Shown piece by piece: positions 7,401-45,877 of a DNA stretch of 64,000 nt. The notes under the pieces are model-generated. The model had not been told where the DNA came from. It was given only the letters and a program-made list of their open reading frames with translations, and made no database searches. Position 1 is the stretch's first letter. Every line of letters begins with the position of its first letter. The stretch spans positions 928,003 through 992,002 of the forward strand of contig NC_012438.1 in assembly GCF_000021545.1 (NCBI RefSeq). Direction: 5' to 3'. Source of the DNA: Sulfurihydrogenibium azorense Az-Fu1. Lineage in GTDB: Bacteria; Aquificota; Aquificia; Aquificales; Hydrogenothermaceae. The position numbers were made by a program, and so were the translations under genes.

Positions 7401-9290
7401 ACAGTATGCGTTAGATTGGCAATTTGTTATATTTAATTTGCCTCCAGAGTAGGTTAATGAACATTTTTGCGCGCAAGAAGAATACACATTTAAACAACCA
7501 CTTACAGATTTTCCAAGAGGGTTAATTCTGACTAATTTACCCCCTATTTTTACCGCTATATCTGGAATAGGTGAAGCTAAGGCTACAGAAAAAGTTTTTA
7601 TAGGAGAAGGTTTTGCGCCCGAGAAGTTATCTCTCCATCCTCCGCTCTTTTTGTTTCCATAGTAAGCAAGAGATGCTACATAGAAACTACCTTGCTTGGT
7701 GGGTTCTTCTGGACACAGACCTCTAATAGTTGCAAGGGAAGACATGCTCTTAGCGGAGCATATAAAATCATAGAAAGATGAGGATTGTCCAATAAAGTAA
7801 TTTCCTGAAATACCTTCAACTGAGGAGATGGTATCTGCAAGAGCAGAGACATTGAGCATAGAAAGGTCACCACTAAATGAGTTAAAAGATGAACCGGGAA
7901 CGCTATCCGAGTCGTAGCTGTTGTTAATGTCGCTAAGAGTTATAACAAATGGCTTTGCGCATATGGGAAAGATATCGTAAAGTTTGTAAGAATTACCACC
8001 TGCGGTAAACTTTCCCCAGTTGGGCTTAGGTAAGTTAATACCTCCATCTTGATTTCCTGAATATGTAAAACTTGAGGTAGGACTGGTTTTTCCAGCAAAA
8101 TATCTAAGTGCTTCATAAAGCATTTCTCCAACAGGATTTCCCCAGTTTTTGAATTCTCCTTCAATCATAGGACGGGTTGTAACCCAACCACCTGCGTAGG
8201 AATAATTATTATAGTTAAAATCAACAATCTTCAGTCTATCAAATGTAAGTATAATATTTCCGGGTGTATTTTCCGAGGATTGAAAAATTCCGGTATTAGC
8301 GTTTGTTTCATCAACAATCGACCATATATTCTTTCTAAGAACACCTCCGCTCATGTTCTTTTCATAAGAACCTGTTATAAGTCCAAAGTACATCTGCCCT
8401 TTGTCTACACACAATCCTTCATTTGATCCACAATCATTGTTAGTTTGACAGGGTTTTAAGGTTTTGGAACACCATTTTGAGCCATCACCCTCCCCATACT
8501 TCTGAAGTAGACCGATAGGTTTATAGGTTCCCCCACCACCAGGGTATCTCTTACAATTTGGCTCAAGACCTACCGATGGGTCGCAAACTTTTACCCTTAT
8601 ATAGTATTCAGAAGGAGTTCCCAAACTGTTATCACAGACAGGTCTCTCTTTAGATGCCCACTCCCAAATACGATTTGACTTATTTTGTAACACTCTTATT
8701 TTTCTGGTGTCTCCATTAGAGGTACTTGTTATACAGAAAAGGTGGCGATTGTTCGAAGAGGGTGGATTAAAGGGGGTTAATAGATTTGTATCTGTTCCGC
8801 TGTATTCCTTTCCCCAGCTGTGAGCATCCTGCGGAATAAAGGTGGCTTCTAATACCGTTTCTGAAGCAGAGTCTGTTAATCTGTAGCCACCATAAAGGAC
8901 TTTTCTTAAAACATCTATCCTTGCCATAGTTAACCAGTTTAAGAAATTACCGCTCCATTCACCACTCCCACCACAGTACTTGTTATTTGTTTTTCTAATA
9001 GGCTCAAATCTTGAATTTTGGTATTTATAACATTTATAAGGATCAAAATATCCGTAGTAGTCTATGGAGTGTTTATATCCTACATCAAGTTTTCCATCTT
9101 CATCCAAGTCAGAAGCATCATTATAAGCTTCATAATACAATTTGTGGTCTTTTCCAGATACAAGCATAACAAGTGGTGGTATACTCGAAGCTAAGAAAGG
9201 TGGAACGTAGCAGTAATCTGACATATTAGCACTTCTTACATTTAAGTTGTATAATAGGAGTAAAATTAATAAAAATTTCAATTTTCTCAT
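4473..9290 (-). CDS. pilY1: PilY1-like pilus tip adhesin/assembly protein
   Basis: The very large 1605-aa protein has an N-terminal signal peptide (about residues 1-21) followed by a Cys-containing exported domain. An EF-hand-like Asp loop lies near residues 59-68 (SDLDEDGKLD). The C-terminal third has the PilY1 beta-propeller signature: the stretch FPVDVDNDYSDDTIYFGLYG with a calcium-type Asp/Asn cluster and a nearby LWVFFGTGRYL. PilY1 caps the pilus, promotes extension and often acts as an adhesin or surface sensor. Its position at the head of the minor-pilin operon supports the call. An AGAGG ribosome site precedes the ATG. The long central region is not assigned. Confidence 0.88.
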   Translation of the reverse strand: MRKLKFLLILLLLYNLNVRSANMSDYCYVPPFLASSIPPLVMLVSGKDHKLYYEAYNDASDLDEDGKLDVGYKHSIDYYGYFDPYKCYKYQNSRFEPIRKTNNKYCGGSGEWSGNFLNWLTMARIDVLRKVLYGGYRLTDSASETVLEATFIPQDAHSWGKEYSGTDTNLLTPFNPPSSNNRHLFCITSTSNGDTRKIRVLQNKSNRIWEWASKERPVCDNSLGTPSEYYIRVKVCDPSVGLEPNCKRYPGGGGTYKPIGLLQKYGEGDGSKWCSKTLKPCQTNNDCGSNEGLCVDKGQMYFGLITGSYEKNMSGGVLRKNIWSIVDETNANTGIFQSSENTPGNIILTFDRLKIVDFNYNNYSYAGGWVTTRPMIEGEFKNWGNPVGEMLYEALRYFAGKTSPTSSFTYSGNQDGGINLPKPNWGKFTAGGNSYKLYDIFPICAKPFVITLSDINNSYDSDSVPGSSFNSFSGDLSMLNVSALADTISSVEGISGNYFIGQSSSFYDFICSAKSMSSLATIRGLCPEEPTKQGSFYVASLAYYGNKKSGGWRDNFSGAKPSPIKTFSVALASPIPDIAVKIGGKLVRINPLGKSVSGCLNVYSSCAQKCSLTYSGGKLNITNCQSNAYCPTNQIVDFYVDTVNYDSDGNLTYAKFRINFEDVEQGGDHDMDAIVEYEIQPVGANQIKVKLTSSYAAGCIDQVLGFNISGTTEDGTWLVVKDKDANTDGDTPAVVGGMPLTWERTFTVTGSTAGQLKPPLWYAAKWGGFNDINGNEIPDLPQEWDKDGDGKPDTYFYVVNPLKLERELEKAFTEILKRASSGSTVATLSTKTSISSLMIQPFFFSSYTDSAGRDINWIGFSRSYWVDPKNDNREDTNSNKVLNLDFDKIFQIYFDTNNNQTKAAILTDTSTCTSTGTKDLVNLIPVFDSGCWLGNCNPSDRRIYYYTGSQLKDFTTSNYPDLKNIWDLVDDNSSNSSINDSTTQCIIRFLRGEDLSSDSTCSSNDYVKRNMKIKISDICPGLTGDKIWKLGDTITSTPAVVSNEKLNNYDYRYQDSTYYSYVNSDDYKNRPSILIQGANDGMLHFFRMGTIIDQSTTDPDNPVKLQNSPTDSGTNLIAKEEFAFIPKNAVPYLLWYGRKDYCHIPTLDSRVIVFDASINGNPNDYKTFNSWRTIVIGTMGFGGKALTAGNTTYSSSIFALDITDWLKNPSASVPTVLWEITLPDNTLVLSYPSIIRLGDANKNGNWYVVVGTGPNNPKPDSNSKFVNNPKIYFFDLKTGNKVNEISIPLPNNTVAAVGDTFPVDVDNDYSDDTIYFGLYGLKNQGNVWNNWGQFYRLVIKNGLSSASLSNAVNMETFNNNNQTPPITAAPNFTKDENGNLWVFFGTGRYLTEDDKTLSYKNYFIGFKDPCWNGSCSTTFTKSDFTDTTNENIQATIVEVKKVCICDSSGCSNRDVVYSAKGNTPAEVDKGWYKELTNEGVISQSLVFGSIIDFMTFIPPNDICAYEGNSKLYALYYKSGTAYPNPAILSPNAVTGTISVGQTVTVNPSINLGVGIPPRGNPFQVSVSQNSPNTYKKFIQISSGVVVRQSQQPITSKPGFILWIEK

Positions 9291-9364
9291 TTTTAAACAA
9301 CCTCTTGGTATATTTGATTTTTAATACTAATTTAAACCTTTTTTGTATAAAAATCGTGAAAAGT

Positions 9365-10087
9365 TTAAATTAGTTGACAGAATCTCTCGTAGTCTTCTTT
9401 TGTGTCTATACCGAGGGTGTCTTTTGATGCTTGGATTACTTTGATTTTGTAGCCGTTATAAAGTAGTCTGAGCTGTTCTAACTTTTCTACCTCTTCTATA
9501 GTTGAAGGGCTGAGTTTAAATGAAAAGTCCAACAAAACTTCTTTTCTATAGCCGTATATACCTATATGTTTTTGAGGTTTTAGTATGTTTAGCATTTTTG
9601 AAAAGTCTATATCTCTGTAAAATGGAATAGGACTTCTTGAGAAGTAAAGGGCGTAATTGTCTTTGTCTATCACGACTTTAACTATGTTTGGGTTTATGTA
9701 GTCTTCTTCTTTTTCTATAGGGTAGGATAAGGTAGCAACTTTGTCTTTTTCAAGTGCTTGGAATATTTTTTTTATATCTTGTGGGTCTACTGTAGGTTCA
9801 TCTCCTTGTAGGTTTACAACAGTGTCATAGTCTAAATCTTTTAACGCAAAGGCTACTCTGTCTGAGCCACTTTTTAAGTCTGAAGGTGTTAGTATCACTT
9901 CTACTGGATAGTCTTTTAAGACATTTTTAAACTCTAAATCATCACACACAACTACAACAGGATAACCAACCTTTAAAGCATTTTCCACAGTCCAAGCTAT
10001 AACAGGTTTGTCTTTTACGGGTAAAAGTAGCTTATCTTTTAACCTTGTAGAGCCTCTACGAGCCGGAATAAATATAGCTTTTTTCAT
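9365..10087 (-). CDS. kdsB: CMP-KDO synthetase
   Basis: The 240-aa protein has nucleotidyltransferase motifs IPARRGSTRLKDKLLLP near the N-terminus, NLQGDEP (metal and nucleotide binding) and the C-terminal TLGIDTKEDYERF typical of KdsB. It activates 3-deoxy-manno-octulosonate with CTP for lipid A core synthesis, so the cell has an LPS-type outer membrane. Its ATG overlaps the upstream GH57 gene stop (ATGA), so the two are translationally coupled. Length matches the family. The downstream 3' spacer before pilY1 is short and carries no clear terminator. Confidence 0.95.
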   Translation of the reverse strand: MKKAIFIPARRGSTRLKDKLLLPVKDKPVIAWTVENALKVGYPVVVVCDDLEFKNVLKDYPVEVILTPSDLKSGSDRVAFALKDLDYDTVVNLQGDEPTVDPQDIKKIFQALEKDKVATLSYPIEKEEDYINPNIVKVVIDKDNYALYFSRSPIPFYRDIDFSKMLNILKPQKHIGIYGYRKEVLLDFSFKLSPSTIEEVEKLEQLRLLYNGYKIKVIQASKDTLGIDTKEDYERFCQLI

Positions 10088-39631: not shown

Positions 39632-40732
39632 TGTATAAGTTTCAATACACAGTGAACACCTACCCCTTTAAAATAATTTCAACAAAAACAGGAGGTAGGT
39701 TATATGAAAGGTATTATAGGAACCCCTATGTATATGACAACACTCTTTCCTAAAAAACTATCAAACAAGATTAAAGACATTCCTTTAACAAAAGAAGCCA
39801 AAAAAAGACTAAAATGGATACAGCACTACCAAGATACAAAAAATATATCCAAAACCTGCAGATACTTCGGAATATCAAGAACTACCTTCTATAAATGGTT
39901 TGAAAGATACAAAAAAGACGGACTTGAAGGACTTCTTGATAGACCTAAAACACCAAAAAACACAAGAAAACCAACTATAAGAAATCAGTACAGAGAACAA
40001 ATAATAAAAGTCAGGAAACAAAACCCAACTTGGAGCAAAGAAAAAATATCGGCATATCTACAAGAAGAAAAAAACATAAAAGTATCACCATCTACAGTGT
40101 ATAAAGTATTAAAAGAAGAAGGATTAATAGAGAGAACAAAATCAATTAAAATACAAAACAAAAGAAAAAAGAGTATAAAGAAGAAAAGGACAAAAAGAGG
40201 CTTGCAAGCACAAGCCCCAGGGGATGTAGTACAAATAGACGTAAAACACCTGAACATCGCAGGTGCAACATATTACCAATTCACAGCTATAGATAAGTAT
40301 AGCAGATTTTGTTTTGCACGGGTATATGAAAGTAAAAATTCAAAGAAAACAAAAGAATTTTATATTGAGTTAAATGAGTATTTTGAATTTGAGATAAAGA
40401 GGGTACAAACAGATAACGGGAGTGAGTTTTTAGGGGAGTTTAACAAGTATTTAACGGATATAGGAGTGGAGCATTACTTTAGCTATCCAAGGAGTCCAAA
40501 GACTAATGGTGTTGTAGAAAGATTGATAAGGACAATAGAAGAGGAGTTATGGTTGATAGAGGGATTAGATTACACATTAGAGGAGATGAATAAGAAGTTA
40601 AGGAAGTATGTAAGGAAGTACAATTTTATAAGGCCACATCATTCTTTAGGATACAAAAGACCAGCAGACATTGTTTATGGAGTATGATAAAATTTTTAGG
40701 TGAAGGTGTTCACGATGTATAGAACTCATACA
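39632..40732 (+). mobile_element. IS481-like insertion sequence, copy 2 (1101 bp)
   Basis: Ends are TGTATAAGTT at 39632 and, on the other strand, TGTATGAGTT at 40732. A 5-bp target duplication TCCGG flanks it (39627-39631 and 40733-40737). Length and transposase are the same as the copy at 831-1931, in opposite orientation. It inserted 92 bp before the first CRISPR repeat, apparently inside the leader region. Confidence 0.93.
39704..40687 (+). CDS. IS481-like DDE transposase (copy 2)
   Basis: The 327-aa protein is identical to the transposase at 876-1859, with helix-turn-helix and DDE triad Asp179/Asp237/Glu272. It is intact, with AGGAGGTAGG upstream. It is transcribed toward the CRISPR array, so read-through from the element could affect array expression. 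Confidence 0.93.
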   Translation: MKGIIGTPMYMTTLFPKKLSNKIKDIPLTKEAKKRLKWIQHYQDTKNISKTCRYFGISRTTFYKWFERYKKDGLEGLLDRPKTPKNTRKPTIRNQYREQIIKVRKQNPTWSKEKISAYLQEEKNIKVSPSTVYKVLKEEGLIERTKSIKIQNKRKKSIKKKRTKRGLQAQAPGDVVQIDVKHLNIAGATYYQFTAIDKYSRFCFARVYESKNSKKTKEFYIELNEYFEFEIKRVQTDNGSEFLGEFNKYLTDIGVEHYFSYPRSPKTNGVVERLIRTIEEELWLIEGLDYTLEEMNKKLRKYVRKYNFIRPHHSLGYKRPADIVYGV

Positions 40733-40824: not shown

Positions 40825-41457
40825 GTTTTTCTCCCGACTATGAGGGAATTGAAACCTACATCACTTTTTTAGATTTGTCAAATCTAAAGTGAGTTTTTCT
40901 CCCGACTATGAGGGAATTGAAACCCATAACACACCTCCTATTTAAATTTTTTTTGGGACGTTTTTCTCCCGACTATGAGGGAATTGAAACTACTCTAAAT
41001 AAAGTTTTTCAAGTCCAGAATCAAAAGTTTTTCTCCCGACTATGAGGGAATTGAAACTATTTTTCCCATTTAGCTTTCCTATATACACTCCCGTTTTTCT
41101 CCCGACTATGAGGGAATTGAAACAGGGTTGTAAACGATGAAGTGGGGGAATTGTCCCCCAGTTTTTCTCCCGACTATGAGGGAATTGAAATTTGACAGCA
41201 TCACGCAAAAAGATGAAAGAAAGACCCGGTTTTTCTCCCGACTATGAGGGAATTGAAACTCAGATGCACTATCAGAAGAAAGAGATTTGTCTTCGTTTTT
41301 CTCCCGACTATGAGGGAATTGAAACATTGCTTTTCTGATTGCAATAAGTCCAACCAAAGCACTGTTTTTCTCCCGACTATGAGGGAATTGAAGTGATTTA
41401 AAATCTGTTGTGTGAATAAATCCTTTATTTGGTTTTTCTCCCGATTATGAGGGAATT
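40825..41457 (+). CRISPR. CRISPR array, 10 repeats / 9 spacers, no adjacent cas genes
   Basis: The repeat is 30-31 nt, starting GTTTTTCTCCCGACTATGAG and ending GGGAATTGAAAC, giving the usual ATTGAAAC handle. Repeat starts are 40825, 40893, 40960, 41027, 41093, 41161, 41229, 41295, 41364 and 41432. Spacers are 35-38 nt. Repeats 1-5, 7 and 8 are identical; repeat 6 differs only in its last base, repeat 9 has a changed end (GAAGT), and repeat 10 is degenerate (GATTATG, loses the ATTGAAAC end), marking the leader-distal side. Orientation is plus strand. Spacers 1 and 5 are themselves hairpins. No cas1, cas2, cas6 or interference gene lies in the window. Confidence 0.97.
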
Positions 41458-41470
41458 TTCATCTCTGTTT

Positions 41471-41521
41471 CTCTTTTTTGTCTAAACTGTGCTAAAATCT
41501 TTTAAAGAAAGACAAAAAGAG
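41471..41521 (+). promoter_or_regulatory. Inverted repeat spanning promoter/5' leader of the Calp-like operon
   Basis: CTCTTTTTTGTCT (41471-41483) and AGACAAAAAGAG (41510-41521) are complementary over 12 bp with one extra T. Between them is a possible -10 box TAAAAT (41493-41498), and the right arm runs into the AGAGGA ribosome site of the first gene. It may be an operator or an RNA hairpin controlling the operon. The array's last repeat ends 13 bp upstream. Confidence 0.5.
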
Positions 41522-41528
41522 GAAAAAA

Positions 41529-41978
41529 ATGGGTTTTAATTTGGGTGAAATTTTGGCAGTAGCTTTGCCAGTTCAAGGGGAACAAATCAAAAAAGGTCAA
41601 GTTTACGCAGTAAAAACAAAAGCATTCTACTTAAAAACCAATATCAAGCTTTACAATCAAGACGATTCTGAACGAAAATCAAGACCCATAATAATAATCG
41701 ATAAAAACCAAGATGTAATAAAATTCATCGCACTCTCAACCACTCCTTCTTATAATTTAAAAACAGGAAAATATAGAAAGAGAATAAGCTTAGAAAACTG
41801 TAAGTTTGAAGGAGATGGATTTTGTGCTAACATCAAGATAAAAAAAGAAGCTTATATTTTCGTTAGAGATAATAGAGACAGATTTTATATCAATGAAAAA
41901 ATATTTAAAGATTTAAAAAGTAATCGTGAAGCTAAACTTTGTGGAAAATGTGAAAACTTTGGAGGGAAAACAAATTGA
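41529..41978 (+). CDS. MazF/PemK-like protein, first gene of CRISPR-linked sigma operon
   Basis: The 149-aa protein has the SH3-barrel pattern of MazF/PemK toxins: IKKGQVYAVKTK (20-31), SRPIIIIDKNQDVIKFIALSTTP (51-73) and a basic strand region after it. A C-terminal CxxC (138/141) is extra. MazF-type proteins cut mRNA, but key residues cannot be confirmed by eye, so it could also be a binding or regulatory module. Its stop overlaps the TTG start of the sigma gene, so expression is coupled. AGAGGA lies upstream. The inverted repeat in front suggests autoregulation. Confidence 0.6.
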   Translation: MGFNLGEILAVALPVQGEQIKKGQVYAVKTKAFYLKTNIKLYNQDDSERKSRPIIIIDKNQDVIKFIALSTTPSYNLKTGKYRKRISLENCKFEGDGFCANIKIKKEAYIFVRDNRDRFYINEKIFKDLKSNREAKLCGKCENFGGKTN

Positions 41979-42643
41979 ATTCTGCAGATAAAATATACAA
42001 TTTTTTAATAAACTTTGACGAAGAAGGACTAAATCACATAAAAAAAATGTTTTACACTCAAATATCAAAACAATCTTATCAAATCTTATACCAAGACAAA
42101 GATGATTTACTCAATGACTTCATAACATACAAACTAATACCAAAAAGAAAAGAAATAGCCGAAAAATTTTCACAATCTACAGATGGACTTGTATCTTATA
42201 TATCAATAGCAATAGAAAACTTCTTAAAAACAGAAATAACAAAAAAAATTTACAAGTCAGAAATGTTTCAAAATTCTGTTTATTATAATCAAGAAGAAGA
42301 TGAAAAAGAAGACACATTTGAAAGAGTTTTAGAAACTACTCAAGCTAAGGAATACGACGTGTTAGTAAAAATAGAAGCAGAAGACATATACAATAAGTTA
42401 ATAGAAGAACTAAAAGACACGGAAAAACAACTTTTATGCTACCTAATAAGTGAAGAACAACTACAAAGCTACATAAAAGAAAACTTTTTTAAAGACATAT
42501 CAGAAGATGCTTTTTATAAAAGGATTGAGAGATTAAAAAAGAAGCTTTCTTCTATAGCCCAAGAATACGGTTATTCACAAGAAGGCTTTGAAGAAGCTTT
42601 TAACACTTTTTACACACAGATATGTAAGAACTACAAGGGGTAA
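41975..42643 (+). CDS. calpS: CRISPR-associated sigma-70-type factor (CalpS-like)
   Basis: The 222-aa protein has an ECF-like layout: a sigma-2-like helical region (about 40-95, DLLNDFITYKLIPKRKEI, GLVSYISIAIENFLKTEIT), an acidic linker and a sigma-4-like region (about 125-205, IYNKLIEELKDTEKQLLCYL ... YKRIERLKKKLSSIAQEYGY). The TTG start overlaps the previous stop (TTGA) and has GGAGGG eight bases upstream. In the described Sulfurihydrogenibium system, CalpS is held by CalpT and freed after CalpL cuts CalpT. The gene order and neighbours here match that system. Promoters it controls are unknown. Confidence 0.82.
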   Translation: MNSADKIYNFLINFDEEGLNHIKKMFYTQISKQSYQILYQDKDDLLNDFITYKLIPKRKEIAEKFSQSTDGLVSYISIAIENFLKTEITKKIYKSEMFQNSVYYNQEEDEKEDTFERVLETTQAKEYDVLVKIEAEDIYNKLIEELKDTEKQLLCYLISEEQLQSYIKENFFKDISEDAFYKRIERLKKKLSSIAQEYGYSQEGFEEAFNTFYTQICKNYKG

Positions 42644-42648
42644 TAATA

Positions 42649-43464
42649 ATGAAAAAAGATATTAGAGAGATTATCTACAGATTGTACGAGGAAAGTTTAA
42701 AAGAAGAACCTTTTGAAGAATTCAGAGGAGAAGAAGAACCAATAATCGGGGGAGTTTATCTTGGTTTACTCAATAAAAAACGTGTAATGTTTGTTATTAT
42801 TGATAAGATTACAGATAAATACTTTGAAGTGCTTAAAATCTCGCATTTTTGGGAATTAGGAACTATCAGGGATATCGTTTACAGAAACGAGATAGGAACA
42901 TTTATTATAGAAACAGACTTGAATTTTTACCTTAAAGACGATGAAATAAAAAGGTTTAAAAAAATCGATATAATAGACAATGTTGAAAAAATAAAAGAAT
43001 ATAGAGAATTATCAACAGAGGAAAAATTAAAATCAAACATTGAAAGAGGACTTTTTTATATTTATGAAAATGTGTGGGTAGAAAAGTTTAAAGAAAAAGA
43101 ACTTGAGGTCATAAAACCCTACCATCTTAGAATTTTTAACATAATAGACGAGTTAGAAAAAGAAGAGTACAACATCATTCCTTTATCACCAGAAAGAGAA
43201 GAAAATTACAGATATACAGCCGTAGCTTCTACAGAGAAAAATACAGCACTGGGAGAAAACTTTGTAATCTACAGAGAACCACAGTACATAAACATCATAG
43301 TTTCACAAGAGTTTATAAATAAAAAAGTTTCCGTATTTTTAGAAGGAGAAAAAATTTTTGAAAATGTGTTAGATGATACGGTAATAACTTTAAAATTTGA
43401 AAACCCTAAAAATATAGATTTAGAAAAGTTAGCAAAAAGTATAAAAGTGGTAGTGGAGGAATAA
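42649..43464 (+). CDS. calpT: CalpT-like anti-sigma partner and protease target
   Basis: The 271-aa soluble, highly charged protein matches the roughly 33-kDa CalpT in size and position between the sigma factor and Lon-SAVED genes. It has an N-terminal helical segment, a beta-rich middle (IIGGVYLGLLNKKRVMFVIIDKITDKYFEVLKI, about 32-64), a helical linker and a C-terminal beta domain (YINIIVSQEFINKKVSVFLEGEKIFE). No enzyme motif is seen. By the known system it sequesters CalpS until cleaved. The cleavage site is not predictable here. Its stop overlaps the calpL ATG by one base. Confidence 0.78.
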   Translation: MKKDIREIIYRLYEESLKEEPFEEFRGEEEPIIGGVYLGLLNKKRVMFVIIDKITDKYFEVLKISHFWELGTIRDIVYRNEIGTFIIETDLNFYLKDDEIKRFKKIDIIDNVEKIKEYRELSTEEKLKSNIERGLFYIYENVWVEKFKEKELEVIKPYHLRIFNIIDELEKEEYNIIPLSPEREENYRYTAVASTEKNTALGENFVIYREPQYINIIVSQEFINKKVSVFLEGEKIFENVLDDTVITLKFENPKNIDLEKLAKSIKVVVEE

Positions 43465-44924
43465 TGGTCAAGCAGTTTTTAGAAGATTTAGAAAGATTTT
43501 ATCCGGTTATCCTCAATCTAATTAAAGATGGAAACATTAAAAAAGAATGGTTAGCAGATTTATATAGCATATTTAATATGGAAGACAGCCCTTACATAAC
43601 ACCTTTAAAATTTCATCTTTACAGTCTTTTAGTCCACCACCCAGAGTTTTTAGATTATAAACTTTTATCAGAAAAACTAAACCTATCAGAAGACGAAATT
43701 TATGAAATATTTGTAAAAGGAAAACAAGCTTTTGAAGTATACTTCCCTGTTTATCTTCCTGACGAAGAAGAAGCCCATCTTTACAAAGCCTTAATCGTAG
43801 AAGGAACTTCAAAAACATTCACATTTAATAAATTTGTAGATTTACAAACAATAAAAGCAGTTGCAAATAAAGACTTTTTTGTAATATTTAGCAATTACTT
43901 TACAGGAGATAGTTATCAATTTTCAATAGTAGCAGGCTTAATAGCAAAAGATAAAAATATCTTAAAAAATCTTGCATTTACAGGAAAAGTATCATCTTCA
44001 GGAAAAATACTACCTGTAAACCATGTAAATGAAAAAGAAAAAATAACTAAAGCAAACGAAAAAAACCTCATAACTCCGGATGATATCTCAACTTTAGAAG
44101 AATTAGAATTTTGGCTAAACAGCTCCCAAATACCTGTAATACTCCTAAATAGAAACACAGACAACAACATAAAAGAAAGCTTACACCAAATAGAAACACT
44201 TATAAAACAAGATTGTCCTTACTTTACCATAAAAAACCTTATAAAATTCTATAACCTCTCAGAAGAAGATTTATATATAATCACTCCATCCATAGACTTT
44301 TCAAACAGAGAAGAACTTCTAAACATATTAAAACAATTTGAAGAAAGATTAGAAAAACTATTTTCAGTAAGAAATTCAATTTTATACATATCTTTGTCTG
44401 TGGCATCTTTAGGATTTTTAGTAGGATCTTTGATAGGTGCGAGGAAAAAAGTAGTTATACTGCACTATCAAGGTGAATATCGTAAAGCCATAGATATGTC
44501 AAAAGACCCAAGAGTAATAAAAGAAAATGTTAAAGAGTACAGTATAATACAGCCTGAAAGTTGCAATACAGACCAAGAGATAGCATTAATTTTAAATATA
44601 GCATCTCACAACCCTGTAAATTCTGCCAAATCCTACATTGAGAAAAATCTTCCACACGTTAAATCTACCTGTGTTATAAACACAATTTATGGTGGAAACA
44701 TACCATTAGAAGAGTTTTTAACCATTAGTAGAGAGCTTTATACTTACATAAATACGATTAAAGACAAAATTCACCTTTTTTATTCAATTCCGGTTCCCAT
44801 ATCCCTAAGCTTGGGAATGGCAATAGCACACTTTAAAGATATAACCCTATACCATTACGATAGTAAAAATACAACTTACATAAAAATCCCAATTAACTTA
44901 AATGAGGTAAGAAGTAAATTTTAG
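43464..44924 (+). CDS. calpL: CalpL-like Lon protease-SAVED sensor
   Basis: The 486-aa protein has a helical N-terminus (1-85), a Lon-type protease domain (about 90-235) with probable catalytic Ser150 (FTGDSYQFS) and Lys193 (VNEKEKITKA) 43 residues apart, as in E. coli Lon (Ser679/Lys722), and the AFTGKVSSSGKILPVN block. A hydrophobic stretch (about 305-326) leads to a SAVED domain (328-486) with IHLFYSIPVPISLSLGMAIA and TLYHYDS. There is no AAA+ ATPase. In the described system SAVED binds cyclic tetra-adenylate, the protein oligomerises and cuts CalpT. GTGGAGG precedes the ATG. Confidence 0.9.
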   Translation: MVKQFLEDLERFYPVILNLIKDGNIKKEWLADLYSIFNMEDSPYITPLKFHLYSLLVHHPEFLDYKLLSEKLNLSEDEIYEIFVKGKQAFEVYFPVYLPDEEEAHLYKALIVEGTSKTFTFNKFVDLQTIKAVANKDFFVIFSNYFTGDSYQFSIVAGLIAKDKNILKNLAFTGKVSSSGKILPVNHVNEKEKITKANEKNLITPDDISTLEELEFWLNSSQIPVILLNRNTDNNIKESLHQIETLIKQDCPYFTIKNLIKFYNLSEEDLYIITPSIDFSNREELLNILKQFEERLEKLFSVRNSILYISLSVASLGFLVGSLIGARKKVVILHYQGEYRKAIDMSKDPRVIKENVKEYSIIQPESCNTDQEIALILNIASHNPVNSAKSYIEKNLPHVKSTCVINTIYGGNIPLEEFLTISRELYTYINTIKDKIHLFYSIPVPISLSLGMAIAHFKDITLYHYDSKNTTYIKIPINLNEVRSKF

Positions 44925-44950
44925 AAAGGAATAGGTTATGGTGTGTTAAG

Positions 44951-45877
44951 ATGAAAATAATGAGTAAATACAAAGAAGAAATTTTACTAATTATAGTCTT
45001 CTTTTCTTTTTTACTTAATTTATATTTCGTAGATAGTAATAAGTTAATTTATAACTTTTTAGTTTCTTTAGTAATTTTTATATTTTCTCTCTACTGCTGG
45101 AAAGTATCTAATGTATCCTATAACAAGTCTGTCTTAAAAAATTTGTCTAACATCATAAAAGGAGATGTAGCAACTTTTTTAGGTTTTTCAGCTTTTGTTT
45201 CAGAATTTATTTTGTTTAACTTTCTTTTTGAGTACACAAAAAACTTTATAGAAGAAAATAAGATGCTCGATTTTTGTAAAGCAATAATAAGTTTTATAGG
45301 TATCTTATCTATTGGTCTCTTATTTTTTAGTTTTTATCAAGAAAAAATAAAAGCTTACATAAACAGTAAAAAATCTCTAAAAAGAGAACCTAGAAAAGTT
45401 TTAATATTTGCTTTATCTATACCAGGAAAAAATTTAGAAAGTCTTGAAACTCTTCCCCGCAACTGGCAACCTATAAAAGAACTTCTTGAATTTCATAAAT
45501 CAAGATTAGAAGTAGCTTATGTACTTATCTCGGAAGAAACAGAAAAGTATAAAACCGAGTTTGAAAAATTTTTTACAGAGTTTAAATCAAAAATAAAATA
45601 TATTGAGAAAGTCAATATGAATGATGAAAGTAGTATAGTTAATGCTTTAATAAATGTAGTTAGAGATATAAAAAATAATAAATATGAGGAACAGGATATA
45701 TCGGTGTATTTATCGGGAGGAACATCTTTAGTAACAACTATCTTGTCTTTGTTTGGAGTTAACGATGATATACAAGTTGAGTGCATACTCCAAACAAGTG
45801 GTAATGAAAACGAAAAACCTGAAATAAAAACCATAGACCTACGAAAAGATCTTCTCTCCATCTTTGTAAGTGATTAA
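44951..45877 (+). CDS. Four-TM protein with cytosolic CARF-like domain
   Basis: The 308-aa protein has four membrane helices (about 10-27, 31-50, 73-95, 109-129) and then a cytosolic Rossmann-like domain (148-300): KVLIFALSIPG, LEVAYVLISEE, a helix, DISVYLSGGTSLVTTILSLF and IQVECILQTSG. The SGGTS motif at 255-259 matches the CARF position where Csm6/Csx1 and ring nucleases have GGT(K/S). It starts 27 bases after calpL, so it is probably co-transcribed. It could be a membrane effector activated by cyclic oligoadenylate, or a membrane ring nuclease. No nuclease domain is attached. Confidence 0.7.
   Translation: MKIMSKYKEEILLIIVFFSFLLNLYFVDSNKLIYNFLVSLVIFIFSLYCWKVSNVSYNKSVLKNLSNIIKGDVATFLGFSAFVSEFILFNFLFEYTKNFIEENKMLDFCKAIISFIGILSIGLLFFSFYQEKIKAYINSKKSLKREPRKVLIFALSIPGKNLESLETLPRNWQPIKELLEFHKSRLEVAYVLISEETEKYKTEFEKFFTEFKSKIKYIEKVNMNDESSIVNALINVVRDIKNNKYEEQDISVYLSGGTSLVTTILSLFGVNDDIQVECILQTSGNENEKPEIKTIDLRKDLLSIFVSD

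Follow-up and report, generated by a model that had tools for sequence, protein, structure and literature searches.

The region between positions 41,529 and 45,877 of the window (the 64,000-nucleotide stretch of Sulfurihydrogenibium azorense Az-Fu1 DNA analyzed here) probably encodes a CalpL/CalpT/CalpS-type signaling operon responsive to cyclic tetra-adenylate (cA4), accompanied by a further first gene (gene1) and a gene for a TM-CARF protein, and reduced to an effector-only cassette by the deletion of its type III-B complex. This reading comes from comparative sequence analysis. The balance also tips, if only slightly, toward a more specific proposal: that Calp is a four-component system with gene1 as its dedicated partner, and that the cassette has been uncoupled from its own type III-B sensor and now answers to an unlinked type III-A Cas10. 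The Calp cascade has already been published for the same genus, and the core assignment is not new; the features that specialists may find less expected are that the sensor complex was lost with a scar left behind and that gene1 is a nearly obligate partner.

Genomic context and organization of the operon

The genome, from the genus Sulfurihydrogenibium, is a single contig of 1.64 Mb. Four tightly packed genes, encoding proteins of 149, 222, 271, and 486 aa, occupy positions 41529-44924 on the 3′ side of a CRISPR array. The first-pass annotation had described four coupled genes following such an array, and all of these open reading frames were recovered at the positions it gave, with overlapping starts and stops and with the array ending at 41462. 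Gene1 and the sigma-like gene overlap by 4 nt, the sigma-like gene and calpT are separated by 5 nt, and calpT and calpL overlap by 1 nt. A fifth co-directional gene at 44951-45877, encoding the membrane (TM) and CARF domains, had been overlooked. All five reading frames are intact, including those of both effectors, CalpL and the TM-CARF protein. The features of the locus are as follows.

40825..41462, + strand: CRISPR array, 10 repeats of GTTTTTCTCCCGACTATGAGGGAATTGAAAC and 9 spacers of 35-38 nt
41471..41521, no strand assigned: inverted repeat CTCTTTTTTGTCT ... AGACAAAAAGAG around TAAAAT, just 5′ of gene1 (direct reading)
41529..41978, + strand: gene1, 149 aa, ATG start, PADLOC C3a162 family
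41975..42643, + strand: calpS-like sigma candidate, 222 aa, TTG start, two helical domains with a loose linker
42649..43464, + strand: calpT, 271 aa, anti-sigma homologue, PADLOC CRISPR-T and Unk_02
43225..43230, + strand: predicted CalpL cut site in CalpT, codons A193/S194 (alignment to SsCalpT A195)
43464..44924, + strand: calpL, 486 aa, Lon-SAVED
43911-43913 and 44034-44036, + strand: calpL catalytic codons S150 and K191 (alignment of homologues)
44463-44465, 44511-44513 and 44607-44609, + strand: calpL ring-nuclease codons H334, R350 and H382 (alignment of homologues)
44925..44950, + strand: scar of the type III-B block, AAAGGAATAGGTTATGGTGTGTTAAG, last cmr6 codons, encoding KGIGYGVL
44951..45877, + strand: TM-CARF protein, 308 aa, about four hydrophobic segments (hydropathy) followed by CARF (family alignment)

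The last repeat of the array, at 41432, is a degenerate copy. About eight arrays with a nearly identical repeat are distributed between 235.7 kb and 1580.3 kb of this genome, and the adjacency of the operon to one of them is therefore not special by itself. All 107 repeat matches genome-wide lie on the + strand, a uniformity that would be unlikely if arrays were oriented at random. Spacers 1 (40856-40892) and 5 (41124-41160) hold inverted repeats, TTTAGATTTGTCAAATCTAAA and TGGGGGAATTGTCCCCCA, respectively (two of nine spacers, by direct reading). On its other side, the array is separated from ruvB by a transposase gene (39704-40687) with HTH and rve domains and an IS481-like match.

The inverted repeat immediately upstream of gene1 is a possible operator or 5′-UTR hairpin. 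Its arms do not recur jointly elsewhere in the window or in L022, a locus whose type III-A array (8345-9660) contains a perfect 232-nt duplicated spacer/repeat block (9090-9321 and 9417-9648). Promoter-like sites upstream of the operon were not found above the level of shuffled sequences, and no shared CalpS promoter was obvious by eye upstream of the operons of relatives; neither the scan nor this inspection identified a CalpS target promoter.

The Lon-SAVED protease, its predicted substrate, and the sigma-like protein

CalpL matches the crystallized CalpL (PDB 7qda) across residues 2-482 (E=5e-108, ~45% identity) and is 45% identical to the orthologue in the related locus L025; it also matches the PDB 9eyi entries (E=5e-28), which we take to be CcaCalpL. 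The SAVED domain was detected above the curated cut-off in Pfam (PF18145, E=9e-16) and likewise in NCBIfam, while the Lon models gave only weak matches. The first-pass assignment of a Lon protease fused to a SAVED domain is borne out by the nearly full-length match to 7qda and the SAVED score.

Alignment of 19 CalpL proteins shows S150 and K191 to be invariant and to correspond to S152 and K193 of SsCalpL. Of the Ser150/Lys193 dyad named earlier, the serine therefore stands, but the wrong lysine had been chosen, because residue 193 of the window protein is either K or E among homologues and it is K191 that is equivalent to SsCalpL K193. Also invariant in the 19 homologues are H334, R350, and H382, equivalent to SsCalpL H345, R361, and H392, for which mutants slow cA4 cleavage or were assayed for it (PMC11417357). 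CalpL thus combines a Lon-type domain carrying a Ser-Lys dyad with a C-terminal SAVED domain that retains the ring-nuclease residues. A scan of genome contigs for CalpL retrieved matches in Aquificota only, with a narrow alignment query that does not measure spread beyond the phylum.

The CalpT profile retrieves the solved CalpT10 fragment (8b0u_D, a 76-residue chain; E=5e-20). Since CalpT10 comprises 76 residues of the 271-residue SsCalpT, the cut in that protein follows A195, which aligns with A193 of the window CalpT. A gene for an anti-sigma substrate, with an alignable, predicted site for cleavage into 23- and 10-kDa parts, therefore lies next to calpL.

The 222-aa protein shares 36% identity with the protein in the same position in L025, which, by that position, is CalpS, termed an ECF sigma factor (PMC11417357). 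None of the 17 members of its family has a sigma match in Pfam, and a PDB profile search with the protein gave no matches. Its predicted structure is helical, with two domains joined by a loose linker; four of 25 Foldseek matches to the model were sigma or sigma-like proteins, none of them significant. In a local profile match, residues 127-195 align to sigma region 4 (P=1.5e-4, probability 51%), and the same comparison gave no such match for the gene1, CalpT, and TM-CARF families. Orthology makes it likely that this protein is a sigma factor. The order gene1-sigma-CalpT-CalpL is kept in relatives, and the original assignment to a Calp-type operon is upheld by the presence of CalpL, CalpT, and a CalpS orthologue in this conserved arrangement.

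Gene1 as a candidate fourth component

Gene1 matches the PADLOC family PDLC01080 (C3a162, "unknown function") with E=3.2e-13, and its L025 orthologue does so with E=8.6e-59. All aligned members of the family have R52, P53, C91, C138, and C141, and 16 of 17 also have C99; the resulting four-cysteine pattern may form a zinc site.

The first gene had been called MazF/PemK-like, which raises the alternative that gene1 is an active MazF-type RNase toxin and the real effector of the operon. The protein does keep an RP followed by hydrophobic residues, often with a later S/T-T, and is in this respect superficially MazF-like; however, there was no PemK Pfam match among the 17 members, comparison of the gene1 profile with one for 20 PemK proteins of the class gave a probability of 2% (positive control, 100%), and Foldseek returned no match for a model with pLDDT 80 and pTM 0.73. 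A toxin of this kind is accordingly very improbable, and the MazF label is not supported. The published link to MazF concerns CalpT rather than gene1, since it is the CalpT23 fragment that a review describes as resembling MazF (PMC9704534). A PDB profile search with gene1 likewise gave no matches.

In 136 genomes from the class, the gene1 family gave 58 matches, of which 52 lie ≤4 kb upstream of a CalpL-type Lon gene on the same strand; of the remaining six, at least one (L093) is truncated by a contig end. Four CalpL loci that the gene1 search had missed (L094, L095, L102, and L105) proved on inspection to have a weaker gene1 match; in four others (L087, L088, L090, and L091) no gene1 was recognized in the list of open reading frames, with a contig end or an overlapping frame sometimes a possible reason. 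Because it is so closely tied to CalpL, gene1 is very likely part of the Calp system, probably as a fourth, possibly zinc-binding, partner or regulator. In L098, a tandem pair of gene1-family genes (903-1349 and 1373-1840) precedes the sigma-like gene, a pattern also seen in other genomes.

Loss of a type III-B complex between calpL and the TM-CARF gene

In L024, L025, and L026, and in the more divergent L027, calpL is followed first by a cluster whose gene sizes and order fit type III-B, and next by the TM-CARF gene. The block reads cmr1-cas10-cmr3-6, and the CARF protein encoded beyond it has about four TM segments; the first two genes after calpL in L025 were identified by profile as Cmr1 and a III-B Cas10, and those in L023 likewise. 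In the window, the TM-CARF gene begins 26 nt after the calpL stop, and the intervening nucleotides encode KGIGYGVL. This peptide matches the C-terminal end (KTGIGYGVLDG) specified in L025 by the gene that precedes the TM-CARF gene and is read from its place as Cmr6. The DNA of this remnant matches the cmr6 ends of L024, L025, and L026 at 19 of 23 positions, while 2000 random stretches of the window gave ≤17 matches apart from one self-overlap; L027 has the same peptide motif, with a DNA match not above chance. Since the remnant resembles cmr6 ends more closely than random sequence does, we conclude that a deletion removed the type III-B block from the calpL stop to the end of cmr6.

The TM-CARF protein is recognized in PADLOC by CARF_2M (E=4e-16) and TM+CARF (E=3e-14), and no second member of its family was found in the genome. 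It is probably a second cyclic oligoadenylate (cOA) effector, different from Cam1.

A distant type III-A Cas10 as the probable source of the signal

A type III cas10 with GGDD had been expected elsewhere in the genome, and one was found: a type III-A Cas10 with both HD and GGDD, about 525 kb from the Calp operon, in a cas6-cas10-csm2-csm5 cluster without csm6. No second Cas10 was found in the genome. Since the only Cas10 found is this unlinked enzyme, the operon is best explained as being activated in trans by cA4. Calp does occur with type III-A, since in L094 calpL directly precedes a Csm1-type Cas10; the nearest relative with Calp, a genome of the same genus (G001), has both III-A and III-B.

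Two other fates or inputs have to be weighed here. Effectors could decay once separated from the complex that served them, although both reading frames are intact here; it is conceivable, if unlikely, that the loss of III-B has deprived the Calp operon and the TM-CARF gene of sufficient input and that they now persist as drifting relics. The Cmr block has gone, leaving a scar, and no cas10 lies nearby, which would fit such a relic, but all five reading frames are intact, with their invariant catalytic and ligand residues retained. Moreover, an intact III-A Cas10 whose operon lacks csm6 requires an effector, and a search of the genome for the Csx1 HEPN family found no member. The operon might instead answer the nucleotide signal of a non-CRISPR, CBASS-like cyclase, as CBASS also employs SAVED domains and the operon has no linked cas10; with the closest homologues residing in type III loci and binding cA4, and with a Cmr6 scar at the locus itself, this is exceedingly improbable. 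An effector cassette served by the distant III-A enzyme remains the preferred reading.

Under this reading, the crRNA-guided III-A Csm complex, ~525 kb away, would sense foreign RNA, and its Cas10, in which the cyclase motif is present, would make cOA including cA4. Binding of cA4 to the SAVED domain would cause CalpL to oligomerize and turn on the S150/K191 Lon site, so that CalpT would be cleaved after A193; H334, R350, and H382 of SAVED would hydrolyze cA4 and end the signal, and the TM-CARF protein may act in parallel at the membrane. In the SsCalp orthologue, cA4 binding, oligomerization, CalpT cleavage, and cA4 hydrolysis were established by experiment, and degradation of the CalpT fragment is only thought to occur (PMC11417357, PMC12751052). 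For the window proteins, these four activities are predicted from conservation, while sigma release and reprogramming of transcription would follow by homology. The earlier expectation that the cascade works here as in other Sulfurihydrogenibium agrees with the conserved catalytic residues, but it needs amending as to the sensor: with the neighboring type III-B complex deleted, the cascade can run only on the distant III-A signal.

A Lon-SAVED-DUF1874 variant in relatives

Seven relatives of another family carry a longer CalpL of 560-571 aa in operons with sigma-like and CalpT genes.

L086, 4730-6427: longer CalpL
L087, 4842-6554: longer CalpL
L088, 4252-5961: longer CalpL
L089, 3952-5643: longer CalpL
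L090, 1655-3358: longer CalpL
L091, 3885-5600, - strand: longer CalpL
L092, 2293-3975: longer CalpL

All six of these proteins that were scanned with Pfam have a C-terminal DUF1874 (STIV_B116-like) domain, and the seventh aligns with them. This domain belongs to the Crn2/AcrIII-1 ring-nuclease family, with solved relatives 2x4i, 2j85, and 6scf. The SAVED part of the longer CalpL is degenerate, and the alignment shows no conservation of the stretch containing H334, R350, and H382, suggesting that the off-switch moved from SAVED to the fused ring nuclease. Crn2 has been described as a fusion partner of Csx1 (PMC12409355); a limited search of the literature found no report of a Lon-SAVED-DUF1874 fusion, although one may exist.

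Implications and comparison with known systems

The locus represents a natural gene-loss experiment, in which the effectors were retained, the sensor complex is gone, and the scar is visible, and it offers, within one small genome, a direct test of cross-talk between unlinked type III systems. Moreover, since strong evidence places gene1 in the Calp machinery, reconstitutions without it may be incomplete.

The closest known system is CalpL/CalpT/CalpS of Sulfurihydrogenibium sp. YO3AOP1 (7qda, 8b0u; PMC11417357), which comes from the same genus and shares the protease and ring-nuclease residues, the alignable CalpT cut site, and the same four-gene order, as read in L025; L025 appears to be the studied YO3AOP1 locus, reading as 7qda wherever the two were compared by eye. 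In contrast to that system, the operon in the window has lost its adjacent type III-B complex and would depend on a III-A Cas10 encoded far away in the genome; its proteins share only 32-45% identity with their counterparts. CcaCalpL of Candidatus Cloacimonas acidaminovorans (PMC12751052) belongs to the same Lon-SAVED protease family and is more distant in sequence. The TM-CARF protein resembles the CARF-TM effector Cam1 (PMC10808066) in its N-terminal membrane part, C-terminal CARF domain, and association with type III CRISPR. It is not Cam1 itself, as it lacks a single N-terminal TM helix and matches other CARF-TM profiles: Cam1 is a 206-aa protein with one TM helix, whereas the TM-CARF protein is 308 aa long, with about four hydrophobic segments.
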